Positions 5,040 to 30,863 of a stretch of 31,124 nt of DNA are shown piece after piece. Each line of letters starts with the position of its first letter. Position 1 is the stretch's first letter. Source of the DNA: a virus; IMG/VR virus record IMGVR_UViG_3300025664_000003, positions 1 through 31,124 of that record; one strand, given 5' to 3'. The position numbers were made by a program, and so were the translations under genes. The notes under the pieces are model-generated. The model worked only from the letters and a program-made list of their open reading frames with translations, was not told the origin of the DNA and made no database searches.

Positions 5040-6974
5040 TTGGCCGTAAAGCCGATCGTAACGATCGATGTCGACTCTGCTCAGTTCGAACGGTTTACGG
5101 CGCTCTTCAACGACTATTCGGCCAAGCTCGAAGAGCAGCCCGCGGCGTGGCAGAAGCTCAACGCCGCGATGGGCGGCGGCGCTGAGGCGCTCAAGAGCGG
5201 CGCGATGAGCGCCAAGGACGCGCTCGCGCTAGCCGGTGCACAGGCCATCCTGATCGTCGAAGAACTGAAGAACGCGACCAAGGGGCAGTCGGAGTTCGGC
5301 CGCGAGACGGAGCGCTCGCACAAGGGCATGAAGGGGCTCGCGACGACCGCTAAGGGCCTGGGCTCGACGCTGTTCGGGATCGGCAAGTGGGTGACCGGAA
5401 TCGGGATCGCGGCGCTGGGGCTGGGGGCGATCGGTTCCGGTTTCGGGTTCGGGGCGCTGGCCTCGGCGGCGCTCAACCGGCAGCGGTCGGCGAATCAGCT
5501 CGGCCTGAACCCGGGGCAGCTCGCGAGTTTCCAGATCAACGCGCAGCAGTTCGGCGACGTGGGCGAATTGCGGGCCGCGGCAGCCGCTCAGATCGACATC
5601 CAGAAGTCGGGGATGTTCGCCAACCTTCACATGGACTATCGCAAGGCGAACAAGGAAGCGGCGTCTGACGTCTACTTCGACGCGCTGATATCGGCTCGGG
5701 CTGCGTGGAAGCGGCATCCCGAGATGCCAATGGCGACGCCGGAGATGCAAGCGTTCAGGGGCCTCGGCTTCAACCCCGACGACGTGCGCGCGGCGGTGAT
5801 GGACCCGACGTTTGCGCGCGACATCGCGAAGGTGCGGCGGGATACGCATCACGACGCCAGGAGATACGATCTACCGCGCGATGTCGTCGCAGACATGGTC
5901 GTGCTCAAGAAGGCGATGGATTCGGCGGGCATCCAGATCGAAACGGTCTTCATCAGGGGTCTGCACGGACTCGCCGGACCGCTAGCGACGCTCTCGCATG
6001 AGGTCGTCGACTTCATCGCGTCATTTGTTAACGGTCCGCTGTTCAAGGAGGGGATCGACAAGGCGACAGAGGGCCTCAAGTGGCTCGGCGCATACCTCAA
6101 TTCGCCGAAGGCGAAGACCGACTTTAACGCCTTCGAGGCCAACCTCGAAACCTTCGGCACGAACGTCGGCATGATCGCGTCCGAGATCGGCGTGATCGCG
6201 GACAAGTTCAAGTGGCTCCTGCCGAAGCCGAGCGGCAAGCCCGGTGGCGATCCCACCGAGCCGCATATCCTCGCCACGGACCAGTGGATCAATTCGCACC
6301 TCAAAGGCGCCGGGCAAGCGCTGGTCGAGGGGGCGAAATGGTACTTCGGCCCCGCCTCGGAGGCCGTGAAGAAGGCCCTCGTAGGCTCGGGGCCGGGGTT
6401 AGCGTTTCAGGTGATGCGCAAGGCGGTCGCGACGCTAGCTTGGGCTGGCGGCTCCGGTGCGGCGGGCTCGGATCTGGCGAACCCAGCCATCGCGCACAAC
6501 AGCCTCATCGCGTTGCTCTACGGGCTCAAGCAGCGCGGGCTGGTTCCCGGGGTCGGCTGGGTGAAGACCGGTCACCACGACGACGGCCCGCTTCTCCATG
6601 CCGGTGGATACGCGGCCGATATTGACCTCATCAACAAGCAGAGCGTCGATTCGTGGGCCGGGAAACAGGCTGCGCTTGCACTCGCTGGTTACCGCGGAAC
6701 GCGCACCCTCGGGCTCGACCCCTGGATGCGTAGCCAGCCCGGAACGATGGCTAAGATTCGCGCTGAAATGGCTAAGCACGGCGGGATCATCTTCGATGAA
6801 ACGACATCGCATATCCACGCGAGTTCCTATCCCGACGGGACGAGCGCGAAGCCGCACCCTGCGCTCCTGCGGGCGCTGCGCGATCGGCGTCCCGTCAAGC
6901 CGAAGGTTCACGTCACGGTCCAGGACAACACCGCCGGGCGCACGTCGGTCGTGATTAACGGAGCGCGCTGGTGA
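5040..6974 (+). CDS. Tape measure protein with M15-peptidase-like C-terminus
   Basis: 644 residues from a TTG start; AAGGCGG lies six bases upstream, and no other in-frame start fits. It sets tail length and is ejected at infection. Residues 1-110 are helical; residues about 113-150 form a Gly/Ala-rich hydrophobic stretch (TGIGIAALGLGAIGSGFGFGA) of the membrane-interacting type. The C-terminal 150 residues are different: H520-x2-G-x-A-x-D527 (HAGGYAAD) is the M15 peptidase zinc motif, with E587 and HIH 591-593 later. This suggests a peptidoglycan-cleaving domain. The short length predicts a short tail. It overlaps the next gene by GTGA. Confidence 0.8.
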   Translation: MAVKPIVTIDVDSAQFERFTALFNDYSAKLEEQPAAWQKLNAAMGGGAEALKSGAMSAKDALALAGAQAILIVEELKNATKGQSEFGRETERSHKGMKGLATTAKGLGSTLFGIGKWVTGIGIAALGLGAIGSGFGFGALASAALNRQRSANQLGLNPGQLASFQINAQQFGDVGELRAAAAAQIDIQKSGMFANLHMDYRKANKEAASDVYFDALISARAAWKRHPEMPMATPEMQAFRGLGFNPDDVRAAVMDPTFARDIAKVRRDTHHDARRYDLPRDVVADMVVLKKAMDSAGIQIETVFIRGLHGLAGPLATLSHEVVDFIASFVNGPLFKEGIDKATEGLKWLGAYLNSPKAKTDFNAFEANLETFGTNVGMIASEIGVIADKFKWLLPKPSGKPGGDPTEPHILATDQWINSHLKGAGQALVEGAKWYFGPASEAVKKALVGSGPGLAFQVMRKAVATLAWAGGSGAAGSDLANPAIAHNSLIALLYGLKQRGLVPGVGWVKTGHHDDGPLLHAGGYAADIDLINKQSVDSWAGKQAALALAGYRGTRTLGLDPWMRSQPGTMAKIRAEMAKHGGIIFDETTSHIHASSYPDGTSAKPHPALLRALRDRRPVKPKVHVTVQDNTAGRTSVVINGARW

Positions 6975-9607: not shown

Positions 9608-9954
9608 GAACGTGGGGGCGTGTCGGTCAAATTGGCGGCCAGGGCGGGACCTGGACGCTAGTCCAAACGGACGTCAACGGCGATAATTCAAACGTCTATC
9701 TGACCGCGCTCGTCCAGGTGCTGCGACTCAATCTTCTGGAGAGCCCGTTCTGGTCGAACTACGGCATCCCGGCGTATCCATCGGTTATAACTCAGGTCTT
9801 CCCAGATTTTTACGCCTCGGCAACGCAGACGCAGTTCGCTCCCTTCTTCGCATCGCTCACGATCATCCGCGTGCAAGGCTCATTCCCGCCTCAATATAAC
9901 GTCCGCGCGCTCTGTAACTCCGGTGCGATCTTGACGACCGTGGTGGCGACGTGA
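9604..9954 (+). CDS. Baseplate wedge gp25/GpW-like small protein
   Basis: 116 residues, ATGA overlap with the spike gene. The middle reads YLTALVQVLRLNLLESPFWSNYGIPAYP, which resembles gp25-like or DUF2634-like proteins that join wedge to sheath; the remainder is beta-rich. It normally lies directly before baseplate J. Here the GIY-YIG/HNH gene is inserted between the two, beginning within the stop codon of this gene (GTGA). Length fits gp25 family. Assignment is positional with some pattern support. Confidence 0.65.
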   Translation: MRTWGRVGQIGGQGGTWTLVQTDVNGDNSNVYLTALVQVLRLNLLESPFWSNYGIPAYPSVITQVFPDFYASATQTQFAPFFASLTIIRVQGSFPPQYNVRALCNSGAILTTVVAT

Positions 9955-10811
9955 GTTACCGGGGAGCGTACTACGTCTACATGCTGTTCCGTCCTAGCGG
10001 CGAGCCATGCTACGTCGGGAAAGGTAAGGGTGGCCGATATAAGCGCATGGACCGCCCCCACAACACACACCTTCAGCGCATCATCGACAAGGCCGGTGGC
10101 AGACTTACGTCGATCAAGTTCGCCGAATATCTGCCGGAAAGCGAAGCGCATGAACTAGAGATCGCGCTGATCGCCGAGTTCGGCCGCGCCGGGAACGGCG
10201 GAATCTTGGTGAACGCGACGACCGGCGGTGAAGGAATGTCCGGCGTCAAGAAATCGGCGGCTACCAGGGATAAGATCAGCGCGACGAAGCGCGCCAAGTC
10301 AACGCCGCAAGAGCGATTCTGGGCGCACGTCAATAAGTCAGGCCCTACAATGCCAGGCATGGATACAAACTGTTGGCCGTGGACCGGGCACTTGAATGAG
10401 GACGGTTACGGGAAGCTCAATCTGCGAATCCATGGCTATTCAAATATCGCGCCCAGAGCCGCCTACCAGATATGCGCCGGGCCGTGCCCTCCACTCGACG
10501 TCGACCTGATTTGCGGGAATCACGCTTGCGTGAGGCCCGAGCATATCGCCTTCGTGTCACGTCGGGAAAAGGGCGCCCGTGGAATGAGCGTTCCGGCGCG
10601 CAATGCACGAAAGACACACTGCAAGCGCGGGCATCGATTCGACGAAGAAAATACCTACCGCCCGGCCTCACTTCGCGGGCGCGCACCAAAGCGTGAATGT
10701 CGGCCGTGCAAGGCCGTTCATCACAAGACGTACATGGCTAAGCATGGCGATAGGGTGCGGGCCAGGGCGCTGGCTGGATATCATGCTCGAAAGAACGGTA
10801 AGGCGGCATGA
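9951..10811 (+). CDS. GIY-YIG plus HNH fusion endonuclease
   Basis: 286 residues with two nuclease domains. Residues 6-90 are GIY-YIG: YYVYMLF, then CYVGKGKGGR, a conserved glutamate in ELEIALIAEFGR and N in LVNATTGGEG. A NUMOD3-like linker (MSGVKKSAATRDKIS) follows. Residues 120-200 are an HNH_3-type domain: CWPWTGHLNEDGYGKL, ICGNHACVRPEHI. The C-terminal region has a further Cys/His module, THCKRGHRFDEENTY with CRPC. Its base composition looks lower in G+C than its neighbours. It sits between two baseplate genes with GTGA and ATGA overlaps. Whether both nuclease domains are active is not shown. Confidence 0.85.
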   Translation: MSYRGAYYVYMLFRPSGEPCYVGKGKGGRYKRMDRPHNTHLQRIIDKAGGRLTSIKFAEYLPESEAHELEIALIAEFGRAGNGGILVNATTGGEGMSGVKKSAATRDKISATKRAKSTPQERFWAHVNKSGPTMPGMDTNCWPWTGHLNEDGYGKLNLRIHGYSNIAPRAAYQICAGPCPPLDVDLICGNHACVRPEHIAFVSRREKGARGMSVPARNARKTHCKRGHRFDEENTYRPASLRGRAPKRECRPCKAVHHKTYMAKHGDRVRARALAGYHARKNGKAA

Positions 10812-15389: not shown

Positions 15390-15509
15390 TGCCACAGATA
15401 AACGCCGCCGGCCTCTCGCTCATCCGAAACTTCGAGGGCTGTAGGCTCGAAGCGTATCCGGATCCCGGAACCGGCGGCCAGCCCTTCACGATCGGCTTCG
15501 CGCCATGAT
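15390..15509 (+). pseudogene. Truncated lysozyme (GH24 N-terminal fragment)
   Basis: A GTG with an AAAGGA ribosome site 10 or so bases upstream opens a 39-residue frame: MPQINAAGLSLIRNFEGC, then LEAYPDPGTGGQPFTIGF, then AP and a TGA. This is the N-terminal lobe of a GH24 phage lysozyme with the catalytic E16, D25 and T34 region present, but it stops where GHT would normally follow, exactly at the start of the HNH gene. The remaining 100 or so residues are missing. It is too short to fold as a lysozyme. An independent full-length lysozyme lies just beyond the HNH gene. Confidence 0.85.
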
Positions 15510-15948
15510 GTCTTCGGAGGAGCGGTTTTGGAGTCGCGTTGCCCGGCATCCGACGGGCTGCTGGGAGTGGCTGGGCGCGAAGCGCAAGGGATACGGCAAG
15601 GTTCGACGAGGGGGACGGCCGGGTCGAGTATTTTACGCCCACCGTCTCGCGTATGGTTTTGCCGTTGGCCGCGTTGACCCGCGCCTCGATGTCTGCCACC
15701 ACTGCGACAATCGAGGGTGCGTCCGCCCTTCGCACCTATTCATGGGCAGTCACCTGGAAAACATGCTGGATCGTGACGCGAAAGGCCGGAACGTCAACCT
15801 CACCGGCCAGCGACATGGAATGTCGAAGCTCTCAGACCAAGATGTTCGAGACATCCAAGGTTGCGATGACGATGCCCTGGCGCTCTCGGAGCGGTACGGC
15901 GTCGCTCGTAAGACCATCTATTACTGGAGGCAGCGTGCCACAAGTTAA
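15505..15948 (+). CDS. HNH_3 homing endonuclease with C-terminal helix-turn-helix
   Basis: 147 residues starting ATGATG across the end of the truncated lysozyme. Residues 18-30 (GCWEWLGAKRKGYGK) and 44-90 (FYAHRLAYGFAVGRVDPRLDVCHHCDNRGCVRPSHLFMG ... NMLDRDAKGR) form an HNH_3 domain with the CHHC pair. The C-terminus (KLSDQDVRDIQ ... ALSERYGVARKTIYYWRQR) is a helix-turn-helix likely to bind DNA. It has TGGAGG near its end, which is the ribosome site for the next gene, whose GTG lies 14 bases inside this stop. It therefore both ends the first lysozyme and supplies translation signals to the second. Confidence 0.88.
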   Translation: MMSSEERFWSRVARHPTGCWEWLGAKRKGYGKVRRGGRPGRVFYAHRLAYGFAVGRVDPRLDVCHHCDNRGCVRPSHLFMGSHLENMLDRDAKGRNVNLTGQRHGMSKLSDQDVRDIQGCDDDALALSERYGVARKTIYYWRQRATS

Positions 15949-20028: not shown

Positions 20029-20705
20029 TCGTCGTCCCCGCCCGCAAACAGCGGGCCATTCCCAGCCGGTGCAATCCCGCCGCCCCACGATGTGATCGCG
20101 TGGATCAAGCAGACCTGCGCGAGCGTCTCCGAATGCTGATGATCCAGGTTGCACGTATTCTTGCGAATGTGCCGCAGCACGGTAGCGTGGGTGCAGTCGA
20201 CCTCAACGGGGCTCCCGTCGTCGTCCGCGGTCATCTTCCCGATGCACGCCTTCCCGGCGCTAATCCCGCCGATCTCGATCTCGGCCGCGTCGATCTTCGC
20301 CTGCAAGGCAAACACCCACGCGACGTCGACGTGCGGATCGCGCCACAACGCGGAATAGTCGCGCGCTGGCGGCTCCTCTTCGCGCGCGGGCGGATCGTGG
20401 TGAATGTTCGCTTCGCGGCCGTCGACTTCGCCGCGGCGCTTGCGCGTCGCCTTCGGCGCTTCGGTCATGAGCGGATGCCCGTCCTCGGTGAGCAGCACGG
20501 CGCCGCCCTCGGTGAGAATCGGCTCGCTTCCAGCTGCGGCCTTGATCTTTTTGGCCTGCAACTCTTTGGCGAGCTTATTTCGGTACGCCAGCGGCGCACC
20601 GCAGTTCTTGTCGTGATCGACGTTCGGATCGGCGATGCGGTTGTCGCAGCTATCGCAGGTGACGTACACGCGCTCGGCGGTTGCTGGCATTTCGGAGCCT
20701 TTCAT
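20025..20705 (-). CDS. Hypothetical protein with N-terminal Cys cluster
   Basis: 226 residues from ATG in the helicase stop overlap. A second ATG (residue 6, 20690) has AAAGG seven bases upstream and is a likely alternative start (MPATAERVYV). Residues 13-40 contain CDSCDNRIADPNVDHDKNCG, a putative zinc site. The middle is charged and disordered; the C-terminal 70 residues include CIGKM, CTHATVLRHIRKNTCN and CLIHAITSW, further Cys/His residues. It precedes the zinc-finger protein. No recognised family. Confidence 0.6.
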   Translation of the reverse strand: MKGSEMPATAERVYVTCDSCDNRIADPNVDHDKNCGAPLAYRNKLAKELQAKKIKAAAGSEPILTEGGAVLLTEDGHPLMTEAPKATRKRRGEVDGREANIHHDPPAREEEPPARDYSALWRDPHVDVAWVFALQAKIDAAEIEIGGISAGKACIGKMTADDDGSPVEVDCTHATVLRHIRKNTCNLDHQHSETLAQVCLIHAITSWGGGIAPAGNGPLFAGGDDE

Positions 20706-22132
20706 TGGGCGACCGTTCCCGGTGTTGGGAACAGGTCTGCGGGGTCGTCGCTGGGTTGGAAGTCCATCCCGATAGTGCGCGCGGCCTCGGGCCGGTTGCG
20801 CTCAAACCAGGGGGTGACGGGGAACCCGTCGTCTTTGGCCTCGCACCACAAGGCGCGAGCGCCGTCGAAGTACATCGGCACGTAGCCGGTGTCGCCGTCA
20901 CGCGACTTCACCACCACCAGCTCGCCGATCGTCGGCTTCTGCATCGGATCCTCGCGGTACGGGAAGATCGCCGTGTGCGCGTGCCCTTCGACGTTCCCGC
21001 CGTCGCGGATCTGCTGGAGCGAGGTGAACGACGGCCGCCCGGTGGCCGTGCGGTTGAGGTGGATCAACGCGAACACCGGGCAGCGAAACTCGGCGCCGAA
21101 CGCCAGGAGCCGCTGGTACGTCTCGTCGAGGGCCTCATGCTTCGTTTGGCGCCCGCGCGGCTTGGCCTCGTCCAAGAACAGCACGTGGTCGATCACGACC
21201 GCGGCGAGCGATCCGCGCCGCCGTACGATCTCCCGGGCGTTGCGATACAGCATGGCGATCGACCGCTCTTTCTGGCCGGTCACGTACACGGCGAGCGGTG
21301 AGAGTTCGCGGCTGGCGATCGCCACCCGCTGGCGCTGCTCGCTCGTCAGCTCCGCCAGCCGCTGCGCACGGGCCGAGGCCGTCGACCGCTGCGCCAGCCT
21401 GCGCCGGTCGATCGCCTCTGCGCCCATTTCGATCGACGCGAACAGCACCGGGCCGTAGGTGTCCGCGATGAAGTCGGCCAGGGTGATCCCAAGGCCCGTT
21501 TTGCCGGTCATCGGAGCCGCTGGGACGACGACAAGCTCGCCTGGGGCAAACCCACCCACCCGCCGGTTCACACCCGCCCAGGGCGACAGGATGACCGTCT
21601 GGCGCTCGCGATTCGCGATCCCGGCCGCCAGCCGGCCGACTCGCTCGTCGGGCTCGTCCAGCCGGAGCGCGCCGATCCCGCGTTGCGTGACCGCCGAGAG
21701 GGCTTGCTCGGCGTCGAGCATCGTGGCCGCGATGTCGTCCTGGTAGCCGAGCTCGGTAATCTCGGCGCCGGCGTGAATCATCGCCCGGGACATCGCCTTC
21801 TTGCAGACCACGTCGGCGTAGTACGCCGTCGACGCCGCCGACGGGACCGCGTTCATCAGGTCGTTCAGGTACGCCATGCCGCCGACTTTGTCGAGCATCC
21901 CGCAGGCGCGCAACTCCCCGGCCAGTGCGACCTTGTCGAGCGGTTCGCTGCGGGCGTACAGCCGCGAGAGCGACAGAAAGATCGTCTCGTGCAGGGAGGC
22001 GTAGAAGTCGCCCGGGTACACGTACTCGAGCGCGACCTCGAACATCGCGGGGTTGACCATGACGGCACCGAGCAGGGCCATTTCGGCTTCGAGGTCGTGC
22101 GGCGGGATGCGGTCGTGGCCGTGAGTGGTCAT
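20702..22132 (-). CDS. dnaB-like: Replicative DNA helicase, DnaB family
   Basis: 476 residues; the start at 22132 is chosen because upstream codons belong to another frame. Residues 10-105 are the DnaB N-terminal domain (PPHDLEAEMALLGAVMVNP ... GDFYASLHETIF). Residues 205-212 (AAPMTGKT) form the P-loop, a slightly unusual form of the usual RPSMGKT; AAVVIDHVLFL is the Walker B strand; residues with VYVTGQKERSIAML, GGNVEGHAHT and VVKSRDGDTG complete the RecA-like core. It unwinds DNA at the phage fork. It lies downstream of the initiator-like gene, and no primase is seen in the window. Confidence 0.9.
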   Translation of the reverse strand: MTTHGHDRIPPHDLEAEMALLGAVMVNPAMFEVALEYVYPGDFYASLHETIFLSLSRLYARSEPLDKVALAGELRACGMLDKVGGMAYLNDLMNAVPSAASTAYYADVVCKKAMSRAMIHAGAEITELGYQDDIAATMLDAEQALSAVTQRGIGALRLDEPDERVGRLAAGIANRERQTVILSPWAGVNRRVGGFAPGELVVVPAAPMTGKTGLGITLADFIADTYGPVLFASIEMGAEAIDRRRLAQRSTASARAQRLAELTSEQRQRVAIASRELSPLAVYVTGQKERSIAMLYRNAREIVRRRGSLAAVVIDHVLFLDEAKPRGRQTKHEALDETYQRLLAFGAEFRCPVFALIHLNRTATGRPSFTSLQQIRDGGNVEGHAHTAIFPYREDPMQKPTIGELVVVKSRDGDTGYVPMYFDGARALWCEAKDDGFPVTPWFERNRPEAARTIGMDFQPSDDPADLFPTPGTVAQ

Positions 22133-22281
22133 GCGGGGACCCAGCCCAGCGCGGCGAGCAGTTGGGCTCCGATCCACTCGGTGTAGGCGGGCGGGATCGC
22201 CTCGTTGACCTCGGCGCGGTGGTAGCCCATAGCCGCACCGCCGCCGCAAAACAGGTCGAGCAGCCGAGGACGTCCGTTCAT
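22129..22281 (-). pseudogene. DNA cytosine methyltransferase remnant (internal deletion)
   Basis: 50 residues, overlapping the helicase start by ATGA. Residues 4-22 (PRLLDLFCGGGAAMGYHRA) are motif I of C5-cytosine DNA methyltransferases as found in phages, and the following VNEAIPPAYTEWIGAQLL matches the C-terminal motif X helix of the same enzymes. The two ends are fused in frame at residue 22-24 and the whole middle, including the PC catalytic loop, is missing. It cannot be a working methyltransferase. Either an in-frame deletion scar or a retained miniprotein. It lies between initiator and helicase genes. Confidence 0.82.
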
Positions 22282-23042
22282 CGCAGCGGCCGGTTCACGG
22301 GCTCGCCCCAAGCGATCGGGCCTTTGGCGAGCGGGCTGCGGGTGAAGTTGTCGTCATAGGCCCGGGGCCCATCTTGCGCTGCGCTCTGGACGACCCGCAA
22401 TGCGGGCCGGTCGCCGACGCCCTTCCACTCCCAGGCCAGCGCGAAGCTCCGAACGGTTGCCGCGCGCTCGAACGTCCCGGCTTGGACGGCATCGAGAAAG
22501 CGGATTGCCCTCGCCTTGACCTCCGCGGGCGGGTAGCTGTCGAGCAGAATCTTGGCCTTCTCGAGATCGGCGCGCATGGCGCTCGCGGTCGCCTTCTCGC
22601 CGCGTTCGTGAACCGGAATCAACCCGCGTTCGACCGCCTCGGATCGGAACCAAACGGCGAGGTCGTAGGGTGGATTAGGCTTCCGTTCGTTCTTTGCTTT
22701 CGGCGATTCATCGCCAAGAGACGAAGTCTCTTGAAACCCAGGTAGAACGATAGGCAACGGCTTAGACGACTCCTTTGTGATCCGCGGGCGCTCGCGTAGC
22801 CGTGCCGGGGTGTTGCCGGGGTGTTGCCCGGCGTGCTCAGAATAGTTGCCGGGGTGTGCCGGACTGTTGCCCGAGGTGTTGCCCGGCAACACTTTGAGCG
22901 TGGCGGCGATCTCGGTCCAGCGGACCGCGCGCCCCTTTTTTGATCCCGCCGCTATCACGGCGGCAACCGTGCGGATCGACGGTTTCTCGCCGAGCGCTTC
23001 GAGCAGCGCGACGGCTGCGGCGACGACCGGATTAGGGCTCAT
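22278..23042 (-). CDS. Replication initiator-like protein containing the candidate origin
   Basis: 254 residues, just upstream of the helicase. The N-terminal 55 residues are a helical, possibly winged-helix region (IRTVAAVIAAGSKKGRAVRWTEIAATLKV). Residues 52-85 are a repetitive linker with PGNTSGNSPAHPGNYS and PGNTPARL. Residues 115-254 are helical (WFRSEAVERGLIPVHERG ... ALAWEWKGVG). Position, layout and the helicase neighbour suit an O/Rep-type initiator of phage replication, but no initiator family is identified with certainty. The linker coding DNA holds iterons (separate entry). Confidence 0.6.
   Translation of the reverse strand: MSPNPVVAAAVALLEALGEKPSIRTVAAVIAAGSKKGRAVRWTEIAATLKVLPGNTSGNSPAHPGNYSEHAGQHPGNTPARLRERPRITKESSKPLPIVLPGFQETSSLGDESPKAKNERKPNPPYDLAVWFRSEAVERGLIPVHERGEKATASAMRADLEKAKILLDSYPPAEVKARAIRFLDAVQAGTFERAATVRSFALAWEWKGVGDRPALRVVQSAAQDGPRAYDDNFTRSPLAKGPIAWGEPVNRPLR
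22716..22732. repeat. Inverted repeat in AT-richer DNA next to iterons
   Basis: AAGAGAC-GAA-GTCTCTT is a perfect 7-base-pair inverted repeat with a 3-base loop. The 100 bases around it (22681-22780) are by hand count about half G+C, clearly lower than the surrounding sequence, as expected for an unwinding element beside the iterons. Confidence 0.6.
22801..22890. repeat. Iteron-like repeats, candidate replication origin
   Basis: Seven copies of a 10-13 base element close to GTTGCCGGGGTGT begin near 22802, 22812, 22823, 22845, 22856, 22866 and 22878, so spacing is about 11 bases, one helical turn, with one gap of two turns. The last copy is a perfect palindrome, GTTGCCCGGCAAC at 22878-22890. 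The repeats encode the PGN-rich linker of the initiator-like gene. Seen directly; origin function is inferred. Confidence 0.65.
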
Positions 23043-26585: not shown

Positions 26586-27106
26586 CCGTCAGCGCCGCCC
26601 CAACCTTCACCCCCGCCGAGCTCGCCGCTGTCATCCTGGCCGACGAGCCCGACACCGTCGACGCCCCGCTCGGAACCGATGCGTGGACGACCACGGTCGG
26701 CGCGCTGCTGGCGGCGAGCAAGCTGTTCGGCGCCGCGCCGTACATCGGCAAAACCGTCGCCTACGCGTGCCGATTGGTCCTCGGTGGCTCCCCGCCCGCG
26801 ACGATCACGGGCAGCGGTGGGACCGGGATCATCCGGTTCTCGCGGCCGACGCGGTTCGCGAAATGCTCCTGCGGCAAGACCGTGCCGACCGAACTCGTCC
26901 GCAAGCAGGGCATGTTTGAGGACCTGGGCCCGACCTCGCGCAACGCGACCGACACCTGCGTCTGCGGCCGGTCCCGTAGCGTCCACGAGGACGCCGAACT
27001 GCGCCAGAAGCCGCACGTCGCGCGGGCGCTCGAACGCTGCGGTGGCGTGTTCCAGCCGCTCGGCGCGATGCCGTTCGACTCGTTCTACTGCGGGTGCTAC
27101 GACTGA
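26582..27106 (+). CDS. Hypothetical protein with two CxCG motifs
   Basis: 174 residues. Residues 95-150 contain FAKCSCGKTV and TCVCGRSRSVH, a paired CxCG that likely holds zinc, followed near the end by FYCGCYD. The N-terminal half is helical and hydrophobic (FGAAPYIGKTVAYACRLVLGG). No family recognised. Coupled by overlap to both neighbours. Confidence 0.6.
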   Translation: MTVSAAPTFTPAELAAVILADEPDTVDAPLGTDAWTTTVGALLAASKLFGAAPYIGKTVAYACRLVLGGSPPATITGSGGTGIIRFSRPTRFAKCSCGKTVPTELVRKQGMFEDLGPTSRNATDTCVCGRSRSVHEDAELRQKPHVARALERCGGVFQPLGAMPFDSFYCGCYD

Positions 27107-27819
27107 TGACGCCCGCCTCACTCGATGCCCGCGCGCCCGGTGCGAAGGTGTACTTCAAAGCTGTCCAAATTGACGGCTATTCCTTCCAGGGCAGCCCGAA
27201 GGTGCTCTACGAGGTCGGTGTGACGGTCGTCCCGGCGCCGCAACGCGAGACGAGCGGAGCGCCGCGCATCTGCGGCCCCGGCTACCTACACGCATCCAAC
27301 GCCGCGGGCGAAACGCTCATCGGCGGATCGTGGCCGTGCCGGCTGTTCGAGGTCACCGGCACGCCGGTCGCCGGATTCGACGGCGAGCATACGCACAAAG
27401 GTGGCTTTCTGTCGCTGACCATCGAGCGGGAGATCGAAGCGCACCGCGCGCTCGGTCCGAACGGCGCGCAGGTCGTGGCGTTTATCGAGCGCCTGAAGAC
27501 CACGACGGAAGACGACTGGACGGTCGTCATACGCGAGCGTCAGCGAGCGTCCGGGGACGCCGCCAGGGCCGCCGCCAGGGCCGCCGCCGGGGCCGCCGCC
27601 GGGGCCGCCGCCTGGGCCGCCGCCAGGGCCGCCGCCGGGGACGCCGCCGGGGACGCCGCCAGGGCCGCCGCCAGGGCCGCCGCCTGGGCCGCCGCGCTCG
27701 CGCTTGTCGCGCGCGACAAGCTCTCGCTGGAGCAATTCGCCGTGCTCTACAAGCCTTTCGCCACGGTCATCCCGGCGGACTCCCTCTTAGCCGAGACGCA
27801 GCCGGAGGTGACGAAATGA
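27106..27819 (+). CDS. DUF7666-like protein with Ala-rich 4-residue repeats
   Basis: 237 residues from an ATG overlapping the previous stop (TGATG). Residues 10-135 form a folded domain with YFKAVQIDGYSFQGSPKVLYEVG, ICGPGYLHASNAAGETLIGG and WPCRLFEVTGTPVAGFDGEHTHKGGF, reminiscent of DUF7666-type phage proteins in which a beta-rich head precedes an Ala-rich tail. Residues 150-197 are 12 copies of a 4-residue unit [RGW][AD]AA encoded by a 12-base repeat. The tail (LVARDKLSLEQFAVLYKPFA) resumes normal composition. Function unknown. Confidence 0.62.
   Translation: MTPASLDARAPGAKVYFKAVQIDGYSFQGSPKVLYEVGVTVVPAPQRETSGAPRICGPGYLHASNAAGETLIGGSWPCRLFEVTGTPVAGFDGEHTHKGGFLSLTIEREIEAHRALGPNGAQVVAFIERLKTTTEDDWTVVIRERQRASGDAARAAARAAAGAAAGAAAWAAARAAAGDAAGDAARAAARAAAWAAALALVARDKLSLEQFAVLYKPFATVIPADSLLAETQPEVTK
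27553..27696 (+). repeat. 12-base tandem repeat encoding [RGW][AD]AA
   Basis: Twelve in-phase units of 12 bases (GGG/AGG/TGG followed by GCC or GAC, GCC, GCC) cover 144 bases. Each unit encodes four residues, giving an Ala-rich helix with variable first residue. The period is a multiple of three, so the frame is kept if copies are gained or lost. Confidence 0.85.
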
Positions 27820-30303: not shown

Positions 30304-30863
30304 GCGATCCAGCGGCCCGCGAAGCCTTGGTGGCCGAGCTTCGGAAATGGGCGCAGACGCGCGACTACGAAAACGCCGAACTGCTCTACACGGTACTCGG
30401 TGGCGCGTACCTCATGTGGCTCGGCGTCACCGAAACAAATCACACCCCCCAACCCCGCCGCCCCCGCATCCTCGGAGAAGCCGTGATGGCGGGGTTTGTC
30501 GGTTCGGTTATCGTCGGCTCAGACGGATACTGGCCGTGCAGGCTTCGTGCTAAATCAAAAGCCGCGTACTTTTCCTTGGATGGCGCGTGGTTCTGCGCGT
30601 GGGCGCTTTGGGCGCTCGGCAAGAGCGACGGATTCATCCTAACGCCGTATCGGTGCGGTCTCGCTCGCGTCCTCGTCGCCGACCCTCCGCTTTGGCGCGC
30701 GCAGAAGAACCCGTGGCGCTGGTCGCCCTGCTGGATTCTCGGCCGCGTTCGCCTTCGGCGCGGCAAGAATTACGACAAACGGAACGCGTGCGGATACTAC
30801 CATCTCACGCGGTCAACGGCGCACATTCTCCCCGCCGCGAGCGAGGCTCCCGATCATGGGTGA
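30300..30863 (+). CDS. Hypothetical Trp/Arg-rich protein
   Basis: 187 residues. N-terminal helix (AAREALVAELRKWAQTRDYEN), then a hydrophobic Trp-rich middle (AWFCAWALWALGKSDG) and a basic Trp/Arg end (WRAQKNPWRWSPCWILGRVRLRRG). Four or so Cys are present but not in CxxC pairs. No recognised family. It overlaps the small gene upstream by ATGA and is seven bases from the next start. Confidence 0.55.
   Translation: MSDPAAREALVAELRKWAQTRDYENAELLYTVLGGAYLMWLGVTETNHTPQPRRPRILGEAVMAGFVGSVIVGSDGYWPCRLRAKSKAAYFSLDGAWFCAWALWALGKSDGFILTPYRCGLARVLVADPPLWRAQKNPWRWSPCWILGRVRLRRGKNYDKRNACGYYHLTRSTAHILPAASEAPDHG

Follow-up and report, generated by a model that had tools for sequence, protein, structure and literature searches.

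This locus raises the question of whether a cluster of short repeats inside a gene directly upstream of a phage helicase gene is the replication origin of that phage, a repetitive stretch of coding sequence, or a site bound for another purpose. The window analysed is the whole IMG/VR virus record IMGVR_UViG_3300025664_000003 (31,124 bases). A tail sheath, a baseplate and an amidase-like gene, found in family scans, indicate that this unclassified tailed phage has a contractile tail.

A probable replication operon and its putative initiator gene

The minus strand at ~17.7–26.2 kb appears, from open reading frames (ORFs) and family scans, to be a replication operon. It comprises a weak HTH regulator and small genes, together with the gene at 22278–23042, a DnaB-type helicase, and genes for a DUF5131 protein and for a RuvC-like resolvase. 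No loader for the helicase could be recognised in the phage. A relative, IMGVR_UViG_3300037228_000070 (L002), was compared over a locus of 13.4 kb. The genes and the domain considered here are the following.

22278–23042, minus strand: putative replication initiator gene (ORF, 254 aa), directly upstream of the helicase gene
22887–23042, minus strand: N-terminal three-helix (HTH-like) domain, residues 1–52, the proposed iteron-binding part (AlphaFold single-sequence model)
22129–22281, minus strand: cytosine-methyltransferase-like gene remnant of 50 aa in the initiator–helicase interval (220 aa in L002)
20702–22132, minus strand: DnaB-type replicative helicase gene, the next large gene of the operon (PF03796, 7.5e-34; PF00772, 6.9e-25; phrog_19, 8.5e-59)

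The 50-aa ORF resembles a leftover of the L002 gene at 5342–6004 (plus strand), with both ends kept and the middle gone. Elsewhere in the record, three plus-strand ORFs that sit among structural and lysis genes are possible homing endonucleases by their sequence: 9951–10811 has GIY-YIG- and HNH-like parts that fall below the cut-offs, and 1586–2149 and 15505–15948 appear HNH-like by eye.

No Pfam or PHROG family matched the putative initiator above threshold, and a profile match to the lambda O family (PF04492 Phage_rep_O and O-like PHROGs) was absent from a scan in which lambda O itself, the positive control, scored 5.7e-36. The N-terminus showed a weak similarity to KfrA_N (PF11740; E 0.036, 15.2 bits) that lies below the gathering cut-off of 26.1. 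In the AlphaFold single-sequence model, residues 1–50 have pLDDT values of 65–88 and form helices at 5–16, 23–33 and 42–51. The models of this initiator and its L002 counterpart both consist of a confident-to-fair three-helix head, a linker disordered across the repeats and a later helical part. Fold searches with these models returned nothing better than E 2, the N-terminal domain matching at noise level; these two models are too weak for fold matches of this kind. Searches of a phage collection with either initiator, or with a 42-bp block from the gene, gave no usable match.

Phased repeats and a synonymous dip in G+C

The sequence-only reading had described seven GTTGCC(C/G)GG-type repeats about 11 bases apart that end in a palindrome. 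Five exact GTTGCC sites are present on the plus strand (starts 22812, 22823, 22845, 22866 and 22878), and the count of seven holds if two degenerate GTGCCGG copies, near 22802 and at 22853–22861, are included. The full motif is exact in only four of the five, the site at 22866 reading GTTGCCCGAG. The units are spaced by 10–12 bp or double that distance, with a barely recognisable slot near 22834, and the closing palindrome is present, with the structure GTGTTGCC-G-GGCAACAC.

22801–22893, no strand assigned: iteron array of GTTGCC(C/G)GG-type units ~11 bp apart, at 22802 (weak), 22812, 22823, 22845, 22853 (weak), 22866 and 22878
22876–22892, no strand assigned: 17-bp palindrome GTGTTGCCGGGCAACAC that closes the array and includes one inverted half-site (direct reading; inverted repeats I3 and I7)

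One explanation, which the sequence-only reading had itself named as its possible undoing, is that the repeats are Pro-Gly-Asn units of a flexible protein linker whose codons have drifted, with no function as DNA. Four copies do share one frame and encode GN, but the copy at 22823 lies in another frame (A-G-Q-H-P) and is nevertheless identical to the first copy over 11 bases; CGGGCAACACC thus occurs both as CCG GGC AAC ACC (PGNT) and as GCC GGG CAA CAC C (AGQHP). We compared the array with recodings in which the protein was fixed and codons were sampled from the phage's own usage, using statistical tests that were devised after the sequence had been seen. The 12 pairs of identical out-of-frame 10-mers were equalled in 0 of 5000 recodings, and five GGCAAC were reached in 0.28% of 5000. 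The 11-bp phase is not a multiple of 3, and the periodicity score of 74 at this spacing was reached by 0 of 3000 Markov nulls and by 0.3% of synonymous nulls; across the whole record, the array is clearly outscored by a single other repeat, a coding one at 27.5 kb. A motif-free count of near-identical 8–10-mers, in contrast, was not significant against recoding (P 0.08–0.14), as a protein linker would allow, and it is therefore frame and phase that carry the evidence for the array. Since identical copies occur out of frame, the explanation by protein repeats with drift is rejected, and the repeats are DNA-level, not protein-level. The synonymous dip in G+C that adjoins them, described below, also argues against a mere linker, which we regard as highly improbable.

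The coding repeat near 27.5 kb (27500–27720) is a strong short tandem repeat of alanine-rich units (AARAAAGAAAG-like) that outscores every other repeat in the record, and lies in a 241-aa ORF (27094–27819, plus strand) that has no Pfam match.

Beside the array, a stretch of about half G+C holding a perfect 7-base inverted repeat had also been reported. The 80-mer at 22674 agrees with the first part of this description, as it is 47.5% GC against a record mean of 66% and ties for the lowest-GC 80-mer of the 31-kb record. The inverted repeat is likewise present and perfect, except that its arms are 8 bp, not 7.

22653–22772, no strand assigned: proposed DNA unwinding element, in which GC3 falls to about 0.5 (core 22674–22753, 47.5% GC)
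22715–22733, no strand assigned: perfect 8-bp inverted repeat CAAGAGAC-TTC-GTCTCTTG inside the proposed unwinding element (inverted-repeat search)
22702–22714, no strand assigned: second small hairpin in the proposed unwinding element, following the 8-bp repeat

The 34-codon linker has a GC3 of 0.50 where 0.845 is expected (0 of 1000 recodings), which is lower than in all 3890 windows from 15 other genes, and the dip is limited to about 22653–22772. The low GC of this stretch therefore results from synonymous codon choice. The 8-bp hairpin is marginal against recoding (P 0.049).

The matching locus in a relative

L002, whose helicase is 85% identical, was the sole close relative among the viral contigs scanned with the initiator, the helicase, a helicase fragment, a lysis-region protein, the block DNA, the L002 initiator and two alignments as queries. 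Genome scans for further relatives found none; the more distant helicase relatives, L006 and L007, are at 34–36%. Over its first ~80 residues, the product of the L002 gene in the matching place shows no detectable similarity to the putative initiator; beyond these, aligned identity is 34%, with BLASTP aligning the two proteins only from a shared block onward (E 6e-7). The DNA common to both genes is confined to a 44-bp piece and the 3' end.

22762–22791, minus strand: 30-bp block identical in L002 that encodes RPRITKESS and forms the hinge between the array and the low-GC stretch (44-bp alignment, 22759–22800, 91%)

The identity of this block at the DNA level is not unusual, as 10 of 140 identical 9-aa windows of the helicases are likewise identical in DNA. 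Its AAAGGAG motif was considered as an internal ribosome site and rejected on inspection, there being no suitably placed start codon in both phages.

Around the identical 30-bp block, the parts of the L002 gene are arranged in the same order as here, with different sequences. Repeats of ~11 bp that differ in sequence from those described above occur in the matching place with the highest score of the 13.4 kb (P 0.011–0.015), and were not significant in a stricter slot-based consensus test (P 0.24). The L002 linker has a GC3 of 0.53 versus 0.85 (0 of 5000 recodings), which places it among the lowest 0.3% of windows. An 8-bp hairpin is nested in an inverted repeat of 12 bp, the longest of the locus, which is matched in 0 of 1000 recodings.

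The block of 30–44 bp could be no more than a joint left by recombination where gene halves were swapped, in which case the repeats and the low GC would be relics of foreign DNA. Phage genes are mosaic, and the block and the C-terminal tail form islands amid a diverged stretch, both of which fit such a joint. Phased repeats, a GC3 dip of ~120 bp and hairpins nevertheless recur in both phages with unrelated sequence, for which recent foreign DNA offers no explanation, and we consider a simple joint very unlikely. What the pair does suggest is an apparent exchange of the N-terminal domain together with the repeats, as judged from the sequences of this one pair of phages.

A candidate intragenic origin and known replication systems

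Taken together, the locus has repeats within a gene that the protein does not explain, a low-GC element adjacent to them and a neighbouring DnaB helicase gene, as expected of an intragenic iteron origin. We therefore consider it very probable that 22653–22893 is an intragenic theta replication origin, of lambda-like layout, inside the initiator gene. The features that can be computed for such an origin were found here, apart from GC skew, which was uninformative, and were found again in L002, which supports this assignment. Cumulative GC skew over the whole record, one of the checks proposed with the sequence-only reading, has its overall minimum at 30473 and only a shallow local minimum at 21919.

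Alternatively, the HTH protein might bind the repeats as an operator, to regulate its own operon, or as a partition-type (parC-like) array, to segregate a phage plasmid, with replication beginning elsewhere. Plasmid partition sites also carry arrays of about 11-bp direct repeats, and the HTH-like N-terminus with its weak KfrA_N similarity would suit such a role. The array, however, lies within a gene and not at a promoter, and the gene adjoining is that of a replicative helicase. In both phages, a hairpin-bearing, A+T-shifted stretch that an operator would not need adjoins the array, and no partition ATPase or filament gene was present among the subset of ORFs scanned. An operator or partition site is thus unlikely, and we found no reading other than an intragenic theta origin that jointly covers the phased out-of-frame repeats, the A+T shift, the recurring hairpins and the helicase gene.

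At such an origin, the initiator would use its N-terminal three-helix domain to bind the repeats, all from one side of the double helix and with one unit in each turn, and a dimer of the initiator would sit on the palindrome. The nucleoprotein array so formed would strain and open the A+T-shifted stretch, and the C-terminal part of the initiator would bring the phage DnaB to the opened strands, possibly helped by the hairpins, whereupon theta replication would ensue. With the origin and its binding protein encoded in one gene, the binding domain and the repeats could be swapped jointly without upsetting the match between the C-terminal tail and the helicase. The phage pair suggests that recognition of the origin is exchanged as one unit with the helicase side fixed, and the locus is a plain instance of DNA that carries two codes simultaneously. 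More tentatively, and with somewhat less than even confidence, we propose a new family of initiators in which the N-terminal domain that binds the DNA and the matching repeats, spaced at one helical turn per site, make up an exchangeable specificity cassette; the fixed 30-bp hinge would connect this cassette to an unwinding element with hairpins and to a constant tail that binds the helicase.

The closest comparison is with lambda ori, which has been established by experiment and comprises four 18-bp iterons and an AT-rich region of 38–39 bp inside O, a protein that binds DNA with its N-terminal part and P with its C-terminal part (PMC6022878, PMC3349717). Read by the same procedure, lambda gene O (L008, NC_001416) presents the annotated iterons, then the lowest GC3 of the gene and then a 12-bp inverted repeat. 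This is the order seen here, with iterons in the linker-coding part of the initiator gene, and bears out the earlier likening of this locus to lambda. The lowest GC3 of lambda O falls at gene positions 445–549, the AT-rich part of ori just past the last iteron. The synonymous-site signature thus also marks a proven origin. A GC3 dip beside phased repeats is therefore found in lambda O and in both initiator genes compared here, whose N-terminal halves are unrelated, and may offer a simple route to locating origins in uncultured phages when the initiator has no family match. The proposed DNA-binding N-terminus and helicase-side C-terminus also parallel lambda O (PMC6022878), and an ITKE-coding stretch lies just past the last iteron in both. 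As a general signature, ITKE past the iterons was rejected, being absent from 10 other phage initiators.

The term lambda-like applies to layout only, as far as sequence comparison goes. The lambda iterons are four 18-bp palindromes that bind O dimers, whereas here there are about seven 11-bp half-site-like units and one closing palindrome; lambda recruits the host DnaB through P, whereas here DnaB is phage-encoded; and the putative initiator, unlike lambda O, has no O-family match. The proposed unwinding stretch here, also unlike that of lambda, is about 48% GC within a 66% GC genome. A second parallel is oriL of SPP1, in which direct repeats and an AT-rich unwinding element lie inside gene 38 and the phage encodes a DnaB-type helicase (PMC6316719), much like the repeats, low-GC element and helicase described here. 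SPP1 differs in encoding a loader of its own, gp39, and in having oriR as a second origin; neither was recognised in this phage, whose initiator gave no match by sequence in the phage collection. The likeness to KfrA-type plasmid DNA-binding proteins is limited to the weak N-terminal HTH similarity below the Pfam cut-off; these proteins are coiled-coil regulators of plasmid maintenance that are not known to act as initiators (PMC7783346). What distinguishes the present locus from lambda ori is an initiator that matches no known family and repeats that are differently built, within an arrangement already known from lambda.
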